The position numbers were made by a program, and so were the translations under genes. Below the pieces are notes generated by a model that worked only from the letters and a program-made list of their open reading frames with translations, searched no databases and was not told where the DNA came from. This document shows, in pieces, positions 10,544 to 12,377 of a stretch of DNA of 55,145 bases. Origin of the DNA: Gemmatimonadota bacterium (lineage in GTDB: Bacteria; Gemmatimonadota; Gemmatimonadetes; Gemmatimonadales; GWC2-71-9); contig QHUZ01000030.1 in assembly GCA_003223395.1 (NCBI GenBank), positions 1 through 55,145 on the forward strand, given 5' to 3'. The number at the start of each line of letters is the position of its first letter. Positions within the stretch are counted from its first letter, which is position 1.

Positions 10544-12163
10544 CTATTCGAGCAACTCCAAATCTAATGCGTCTACGGCGGCGCTCAGGGTCGGATCTTT
10601 CGCCCGCAGACTCTTGAGGCGCTCCGCGCTGGCGCCGGCAAGAGTTATGCGCTCGGCGCTGGCTCCCCCCGCCGCGACAGCCACGCGTGGGGCTTCGCTG
10701 ATGTACTGGCCGAGTGCCTGGGCAATAATCTCCCGTTGCCGTTCGAGCCCCTCGGCGTGCACGGCGTGACCGGGTCGCAGCGTAACGATGCGCCCCTCGA
10801 CCGCGACGACTTCCGCCTCCGCGAGGAGACTGCCGAGTAGCGGGGTTTTGGCGCGGGCATCCTGCACGACTTGCGCCCAGATCGAACGGACGTTCTCCAA
10901 TGTCGGTTCTAATTTCTGACCTGTGGGACGGTCGGACGGCCTGACGGCCGGACGGTCGGATACTGTCGGGGTGTGCGACGGCGCCGGCGATGGATTTGTC
11001 CGGCCGTCGGGCCGTCCGGCCGTTGGTCCCTTTAGCGCCTCCAACACTTCACCGATTTCGACCGTCCGATCGAGCATCGCCCATCGGAGCAACAGCACCT
11101 CAACGAGGAGCCGCTGGTTGGCGCTCCGGCTGAGCCGCTCCTCAGAGTCACTCAGGATCGTCAGGAGACGCACGATGTCCGCCGGGGGGAGCTGAGGTGC
11201 GTACTCGCGCACGACGCTCATCAAGCCCTCGGTCAGGCCTTCGGGCTGGCCCCCGACGCCGACCAGGAGCAGAGCACGGAGCGCTTCGCCGGCGCCATTC
11301 ACGAACTCGGCGAGGTCCGCACCTGCCTCGAGTAGGCGCTCGACGAGGGGGAAGATGGCCGCGGCGTCACGCTCGACGATGGCGCGGAGCATCTCGCCGA
11401 ACAGCTCGTCGGGAATCAGGCCGAGGACTTCCCGGACGCGCGCTGCGGTGACCGGGCCTTCCCCGAACGAGAGGACCTGATCGAGCAACGAGAGCGCGTC
11501 GCGCATGCCGCCGTTGGCGCTGCGGGCGATGAGGGTCAGCGCGTCGTCTTCGACCTGCAGCTGTTCTGCCTTCGCCACGGCTTTCAGCCGGTCCACGATG
11601 GCGTGGGGGCCGATCCGCCGAAAATCGAAGCGTTGCAGCCGCGACAGAATGGGCGCGGCGGTGTTCGCGATCTTCTGCGGCTCGGTCGTCGCGAAGACGA
11701 ACACCACGCGGGGGGGCGGCTCCTCGAGAATCTTCAGGAGCGCGTTCCACGCCTCGCGCGTGAGCATGTGCGCTTCATCGACGATGTAGACCTTGGATCC
11801 CGACTCGGTGCTCGCGGCATACATCGCGCGCTCGCGCAGATCGCGGGCGTCGTCCACGCCGCGGTTCGACGCGGCATCGAGCTCCACGACATCCAGATTC
11901 GCCGCCCCGGTCCAGATGCGCCGGCAGGGGTCGCACTCCCCGCACGGTTCGCCCGCGCCGCCCGGGGTGCGCCGCTCGCAATTCAGGGCCATCGCCAGAA
12001 TGCGCGCTGCGGTCGTCTTCCCTACCCCCCGGGGTCCCGCGAACAGGTAGCCGTGCGCGACGCGTCCCTGCGCCACGGCCCCGCGCAGCGCCGCAGCCAC
12101 GTGATCCTGGGCGATGAGATCGGAGAACCGCTTCGGACGATACTTGCGCGCTAGTGCAATCAT
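10544..12163 (-). CDS. dnaX: DNA polymerase III subunit gamma/tau
   Basis: A 539-residue clamp-loader ATPase. The Walker A motif GPRGVGKTTAA, the four-Cys zinc module (about 64-82), Walker B V-D-E-A-H-M-L and a sensor region with T-T-E-P-Q-K-I are visible. After the AAA+ core (to about 365) comes a Pro/Ser/Arg-rich linker and a short tau-like C-terminal domain. The linker is encoded partly by two 8-bp repeat arrays (10927-10958 and 11002-11025), so it has probably grown by repeat insertion. It starts the gene string ybaB-recR-mglB-mglA-pgsA-cinA. Confidence 0.96.
   Translation of the reverse strand: MIALARKYRPKRFSDLIAQDHVAAALRGAVAQGRVAHGYLFAGPRGVGKTTAARILAMALNCERRTPGGAGEPCGECDPCRRIWTGAANLDVVELDAASNRGVDDARDLRERAMYAASTESGSKVYIVDEAHMLTREAWNALLKILEEPPPRVVFVFATTEPQKIANTAAPILSRLQRFDFRRIGPHAIVDRLKAVAKAEQLQVEDDALTLIARSANGGMRDALSLLDQVLSFGEGPVTAARVREVLGLIPDELFGEMLRAIVERDAAAIFPLVERLLEAGADLAEFVNGAGEALRALLLVGVGGQPEGLTEGLMSVVREYAPQLPPADIVRLLTILSDSEERLSRSANQRLLVEVLLLRWAMLDRTVEIGEVLEALKGPTAGRPDGRTNPSPAPSHTPTVSDRPAVRPSDRPTGQKLEPTLENVRSIWAQVVQDARAKTPLLGSLLAEAEVVAVEGRIVTLRPGHAVHAEGLERQREIIAQALGQYISEAPRVAVAAGGASAERITLAGASAERLKSLRAKDPTLSAAVDALDLELLE
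10927..10958. repeat. Degenerate tandem array, 4 x 8 bp (GACGGYCN) inside dnaX
   Basis: Four contiguous octamers: GACGGTCG, GACGGCCT, GACGGCCG, GACGGTCG. They are read in frame as part of the dnaX linker (P-A-V-R-P-S-D-R-P). Bases 10931-10953 are identical to 15094-15116 in the threonine aldolase gene, 4 kb away. Confidence 0.85.
11002..11025. repeat. Second degenerate 8-bp array inside dnaX (GGCCGTCN)
   Basis: Three octamers GGCCGTCG, GGCCGTCC, GGCCGTTG lie about 45 bp from the other dnaX array and belong to the same sequence class. They encode another part of the same variable linker (T-A-G-R-P-D-G-R-T). Confidence 0.75.
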
Positions 12164-12191
12164 TGAGTCCTAATCTACACCGGAGCGCGCA

Positions 12192-12233
12192 TGATGAATG
12201 ATCATTGAACATTGATCATTGATCATTGATATT
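12192..12233. repeat. Degenerate tandem array, 6 x 7 bp (TGATCAT)
   Basis: Six contiguous heptamers: TGATGAA, TGATCAT, TGAACAT, TGATCAT, TGATCAT, TGATATT. This is the clearest 7-bp array in the window. It is strikingly AT-rich for this genome and lies between dnaX and the SRP RNA gene, where it supplies the predicted ffs promoter. Confidence 0.9.
12205..12233 (+). promoter_or_regulatory. Predicted ffs promoter inside the heptamer array
   Basis: A TTGAAC -35 box (12205-12210) is followed after 17 bp by GATATT (12228-12233). This predicts transcription from about 12240, exactly the 5' base of the folded SRP RNA. Both boxes are made of heptamer units. Confidence 0.6.
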
Positions 12234-12239
12234 TCAGGC

Positions 12240-12336
12240 GCCCCAGGTCCGCAGGCTTTCCGCTCGTGAACCGCGTCAGGCCCCCGCAGGGAGCAGCGCT
12301 AAGCGATGTCGGGATTCGTTGCGGGGTGCCTGGGGC
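12240..12336 (+). ncRNA. ffs: Signal recognition particle RNA, bacterial small type (4.5S)
   Basis: A 97-nt hairpin RNA. The outer arms GCCCCAGG (12240-12247) and CCTGGGGC (12329-12336) are perfectly complementary. The apical domain has the conserved SRP core: GTGAACC, GTCAGG, a short CCC/GGG-closed loop, then GGGAGCAGC and TAAGCG. The RNA binds Ffh and directs nascent membrane proteins to FtsY. It is divergent from dnaX; linkage of ffs and dnaX is common in bacteria. Confidence 0.93.
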
Positions 12337-12349
12337 ATTTTACTGGGCC

Positions 12350-12377
12350 ACGGTCAACCGACAACGGTGAACCGACG
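12350..12377. repeat. Degenerate tandem array, 4 x 7 bp (ACSGNSA)
   Basis: Four heptamers ACGGTCA, ACCGACA, ACGGTGA, ACCGACG lie between the 3' end of the SRP RNA gene and the stop codon of the Ig-like gene. Alternate units match better, so the true period may be 14 bp. Confidence 0.7.

Follow-up and report, generated by a model that had tools for sequence, protein, structure and literature searches.

Inversion of the SRP RNA gene in place as the probable reason why its promoter lies in heptameric repeats in a genus of Gemmatimonadota

The predicted promoter of the small SRP RNA gene (ffs) studied here sits in an array of 7-base repeats, and it probably does so because ffs turned around in place at a site where such repeats are common. 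Our explanation as a whole, in which we have good confidence, combines an ancient promoter, separate heptamer arrays in the gap between ffs and dnaX, and repeated inversion of ffs in place, which would have brought an array to the promoter. The window, by which we mean the whole 55,145-nucleotide stretch of DNA that was analysed, is contig C56 of a Gemmatimonadota genome (G000); among named genomes, those closest to it are soil MAGs of Gemmatimonadetes from the AG series. An earlier note on this DNA had drawn attention to the promoter and the array; the wider cause proposed here, that ffs was inverted next to an array inherited in the gap, goes beyond it. The features are collected in Table 1.

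Table 1. Features of the dnaX-ffs region, in positions of the window
Feature	Position	Strand	Basis or remark
dnaX (DNA polymerase III subunit gamma/tau)	10544..12163	-	ORF, orthologue search
Divergent dnaX/ffs gap, 76 bp	12164..12239		Array and predicted promoters of both genes inside
Probable dnaX -10 box, TAGATT on the minus strand	12172..12177	-	8 nt from the ATG; inferred
Array of six 7-bp units	12192..12233	+	Last unit merges into the -10 box
Predicted -35 box of ffs, TTGAAC	12205..12210	+	Array unit; aligned with the -35 T conserved among relatives that lack arrays
Predicted -10 box of ffs, GATATT	12228..12233	+	Lineage consensus TAnnTT
ffs, small SRP RNA	12240..12339	+	Rfam RF00169 match and fold
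Degenerate second 7/14-bp repeat (ACGGTCA/ACCGACA)	12350..12376	+	Directly 3' of ffs; TRF period 14

The array reads TGATGAA TGATCAT TGAACAT TGATCAT TGATCAT TGATATT, its first and last units being degenerate. The earlier note had placed its six units exactly: TRF returns an array core at 12199-12230 with period 7, and the gap has a lag-7 score of 23.8 against a maximum of 11.7 in 20,000 dinucleotide-preserving shuffles, which never approached it. The two boxes spaced 17 bp within the array were likewise where they had been reported, and the predicted start is indeed the first base of the folded SRP RNA, since both the covariance-model match (RF00169, 44.8 bits, above the gathering threshold of 40 bits) and the pairing of the fold begin at 12240. 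The window array has only a weak inverted partner, and a strong hairpin was not borne out by folding (RNA z -0.9, DNA z -1.9). On the other side of ffs, the repeat directly 3' of the gene is nearly identical in the sister G002, and ATTG/CAAT arrays lie at that place in G001 and G009. This flank is therefore alike in G000 and G002 yet of array type in G001 and G009, contrary to the species tree; the 3' flank of ffs is a stretch that has been exchanged more than once. The TAGATT ahead of dnaX recurs in sisters and in other genera, whichever way ffs points, and its short distance from the ATG (6-8 nt in several species) suggests that the dnaX transcript may be leaderless.

The position of the ffs promoter is best judged from relatives that have no array. 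When 43 of these are aligned on the RNA, TA...T stands at one place in all of them and TAnnTT in 41, and TAnnTT keeps a constant distance from ffs throughout the order. A T lies 23 bases before the -10 hexamer, that is, at 17-bp spacing, in 38 of the 42 array-free relatives scored (background 19%, binomial P about 2e-23), and no other upstream column holds more than 21 T. The window's TTGAAC-17-GATATT falls in exactly this register, and the same register reads TTGAAC in the array sisters G001, G002 and G009, TTGATC in G007, and TGCGGA, from ATTGCGG arrays, in G004 and G005. The predicted ffs promoter, with the position and 17-bp spacing that had been proposed for it, is thus well supported by comparison. 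It is not listed by a generic sigma-70 scan based on TATAAT, because the lineage consensus is TAnnTT and GATATT matches TATAAT at only four of six positions; it fits TAnnTT at every fixed position but the first T. That first T, invariant in the 43 array-free promoters, is a G in all five species with ATTGNNC arrays. Its loss is evidence against the promoter as predicted in array species, and it also means that the -10 box has been encroached on by the array.

In one member of the genus, G008, an almost identical ffs is preceded by TTGAGA-17-TAGCTT without any array. Because both boxes exist there without it, the predicted promoter is, from these alignments, older than the array, which occupies the promoter but did not create it. 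The description of the promoter as built from the array therefore holds in part: the array gives the -35 box and the spacer and touches the -10 box, but the promoter predates it. The expectation that changes in unit number would shift or duplicate the promoter did not survive the comparison of sister gaps. Upstream of the -35 box the sisters do differ, both in the length of the sequence and in how many units of which type it holds, and gaps of 34 to 89 bp separate dnaX from ffs in the flipped members of the genus, but the spacing stays at 17 bp with a single -10 box. G008 and every genus examined outside this one have the same two-box promoter, and no array at it.

We located ffs in 53 of 61 relatives. 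It reads toward dnaX on the same strand in 41 of 48 relatives and in 67 of 75 named loci, and this order is the ancestral one. Five related genomes have no ffs beside dnaX (L190, L192, L193, L198 and L203); two of them, L192 and L198, retain inverted heptamer arrays upstream of dnaX, and L193 retains a promoter-like box, TAGCTTTC, that is not followed by an SRP RNA. It looks as though ffs was excised there or missed in the assembly. Of eight members of the window's genus, six have ffs inverted (G000, G001, G002, G004, G008 and G009) and two, G005 and G007, have it unflipped, and the genes on both sides remain collinear despite the inversion. We read these neighbours as dnaX, ybaB, recR, mglBA and further conserved collinear genes, and recognised no invertase among them.

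The number of inversions was addressed with trees. In a tree of 12 linked proteins the unflipped G005 lies within the flipped group (IQ-TREE support of 95.8/93 for G001+G005), and AU tests reject two topologies that would need only two switches, a clade of G005 and G007 (p 0.0002) and a grouping of the flipped species without G005 (p 0.0003). A single inversion in the genus was also tried and is ruled out by the AU test (p 1e-61). RpoB is missing in G005 and G009, and IleRS served as the second marker; its tree, built from other contigs and thus independent, joins the flipped G000 with the unflipped G005 (96/97) and requires three changes too. All three lines give three switches within the window's genus, and we conclude that at least three took place among its eight species. 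The dnaX tree gives at least five in all, with flips outside the genus in L228/L250 and in L229, at loci without arrays.

Arrays lie in the ffs-dnaX gap in either orientation of ffs. A period-7 array is present in 19 of the 22 named clade loci with ffs in place, or 20 of 23 with the window, and across all 75 named loci 22 gap arrays have period 7 against 0-5 at any other period. Depending on the species the unit is AATGCGG, AACGCGG, ATTGCGG or ATTGNNC. In the sisters L199 and L247 the hairpins stand at the same place, but both arms are built throughout from different units (AATGCGG versus AACGCGG), so that the whole palindromic array has either been replaced or undergone concerted change. Folding of the gaps of six relatives gave long hairpins in five, with z from -5.5 to -8.8 and three array types; the single-arm gap of G005 gave no long hairpin. 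A hairpin kept while all of its units are replaced is reminiscent of large-scale compensatory change. Selection may have retained the hairpin itself, for example to insulate ffs from dnaX or to serve as a 3' end element between the two genes, or its retention may follow from how such arrays are made.

These repeats are not a peculiarity of ffs: we rejected that idea on finding arrays genus-wide. In 400 kb of the sister G002 there are 33 period-7 segments versus 0-15 at any other period, and the pattern ATTGNNNATTGNNNATTG occurs in all ten genus genomes and in 31 of the 150 genomes of a phylum sample, the reversed control pattern giving none in the genus. Unit types comprise ATTGNNC, ATTGCGG, AATGCGG, AACGCGG and GGGGACG. 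Forty of the 68 ATTG-type arrays read in context are paired with an inverted array at most 50 bp away, a typical pair being GAATGNNCAATG...CATTGNNCATTC. The nearest 3' end is at most 20 nt from the array in 43 of 65 cases, the nearest 5' end in 18 of 51. About 17 of 49 non-ffs arrays adjoin a tRNA gene; among the gaps sampled in G002 the figure is 6 of 124 (P about 1e-6). The test is rough, its gene calls coming from a simple caller and its baseline from that one genome. An intergenic location is secure for the ATTG type only: 58 of its 65 placeable arrays lie outside CDS calls, and in the all-type scan 20 of 33 period-7 segments fall within crude CDS calls. G-rich GGGGACG arrays, some as inverted pairs, lie inside predicted genes in the first 400 kb of G002:C87 (L082-L101; for example 384878-384951 and 213717-213749), where they are possibly quadruplex-forming in-frame repeats, or else the gene calls are wrong. 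In the window's own genome, a heptamer array on contig C32 (L152, 1038-1076) stands directly upstream of tRNA-Met. There TACATT follows a TTGATC unit at a distance of 18 bp, and this may be a second case of an RNA promoter carried by an array. Spread of the arrays by RAYT transposases is unsupported: no Y1 transposase match was obtained in the array-rich G007, and the one to three matches in other genomes come without shown association.

These observations fit together as follows. The ffs gene carries an ordinary, ancient predicted promoter of two boxes (a -35 T, 17 bp, TAnnTT and about 6 nt to the RNA start), and the clade separately carries period-7 intergenic repeats, often as inverted arrays forming hairpins. 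One such array occupies the ffs-dnaX gap, which in the ancestral order places it 3' of ffs. Several times within the window's genus the cassette of promoter, RNA and 3' end has been inverted in place, and a flip puts the gap array against the predicted ffs promoter, as in the window. Array units now fill the stretch from upstream of the -35 box to the edge of the -10 box; one of them would act as the -35 box, and selection would keep a TTG-type unit in that register. The inverted arrays flanking ffs may themselves promote flips, by recombination or by replication template switching.

This last step, the promotion by arrays of flips of a cassette of about 130 bp, is plausible on evidence from one genus, and we regard it as tentative. 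Similar arrays stand today on both sides of ffs in G001, G005, G007 and G009, where the left and right flanks score 20-33 as inverted repeats versus 5-10.4 in species without two-sided arrays. Against it, the flipped G008 has no array at present, and in G000, G002 and G004 arrays of the matching type flank ffs on a single side. A strict requirement of arrays for flipping we reject, L228, L229, L250 and G008 all being flipped without an array now. It is possible, if rather doubtful, that flanking inverted arrays make ffs a recurrently and perhaps still inverting cassette, with hairpin arrays fixed in place and their heptamers swapped wholesale between species.

Other explanations of the arrangement have to be weighed. 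The array could be the source of ffs expression, its units having mutated into the two boxes: the -35 hexamer is a unit, the GAT of the -10 box continues the unit series, and the G in place of the normally invariant T is found exactly in the five ATTGNNC-array species. We consider this very unlikely, because the same boxes, spacing and distance occur without an array in G008 and in all other genera examined, which also speaks against the origin of the promoter from the array that the earlier note had implied. Conversely, the array could have been inserted neutrally and play no role, with a TTG at -35 through coincidence of phase. With one TTG per 7-bp unit such a match has a chance of about 1 in 7, and arrays often lie close to genes, RNA genes included. 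We find it quite unlikely nonetheless, as the T is in register in all seven array species (which are not independent) with two heptamer types, and the spacing is constant while unit number varies.

The change of orientation, in turn, could have come about by re-acquisition or copying of ffs with its promoter the other way round, by transfer or by duplication and loss. The five genomes without ffs beside dnaX indicate that the cassette can be lost or moved, and the array types of the flanks contradict the tree (G000 like G002, G001 like G009). But ffs is 95.8-100% identical within the genus, compared with 77-90% to outgroups, its location is unchanged and its flanks are collinear. In-place inversion is the simpler account, and re-acquisition seems to us rather unlikely.

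Heptameric repeats are over-represented in many bacteria, and to our knowledge there is no agreed view of their origin or role. The nearest described class is that of the GGGAATC heptamers of Xanthomonas, degenerate 7-bp units that are dispersed in intergenic regions with few units per array and 70-75 inverted pairs per genome, often at most 50 bp from ORF ends and rarely (7-8%) between divergent genes, built on a single G-rich unit able to form G-quadruplexes, at sites that differ between related species and with no regulatory role found (Rehm et al., 2015, PMC4692102). The window array shares their period, dispersion and degenerate units. It differs in that the arrays of Gemmatimonadota are of several unit types and in that its own lies in a divergent promoter gap and is not G-rich: a G-tract was looked for in TGATCAT and none was found, so that it is not a quadruplex-forming unit by that measure. 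Cyanobacterial and Beggiatoaceae heptamers (STRR; TAACTGA) have period 7 as well, are intergenic and occupy many sites per genome; the TAACTGA unit is almost fixed and stands immediately ahead of start codons, and a part in translation control has been proposed for it (PMC4679880). Unlike TAACTGA, the units of Gemmatimonadota are variable and are placed chiefly at 3' ends.

REP/BIME elements, associated with RAYT transposases, are interspersed intergenic palindromes near 3' ends. The arrays described here are likewise interspersed and often palindromic near 3' ends and, for the ATTG type, intergenic, but are tandem heptamers of changing sequence, abundant in a genome without a Y1 transposase match. 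As for the inversion, small inversions in hairpin loops are known in chloroplast genomes. Replication template switching at inverted repeats is also established elsewhere (PMC8794818). In those cases as in ours, a short segment between short inverted repeats is inverted recurrently, but here what is inverted is an essential RNA gene in full, promoter included. Our literature search found no description of the Gemmatimonadota arrays or of ffs inversions.

The ffs locus can be aligned across a series of species: the array keeps its place and its hairpin shape as its units change in sequence, and an essential gene lying between arrays flips repeatedly. This makes the origin and spread of such arrays, and the rearrangement of neighbouring genes, directly testable. 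It also yields T-17-TAnnTT as a well-supported consensus of the predicted ffs promoter for a bacterial order with little promoter data.
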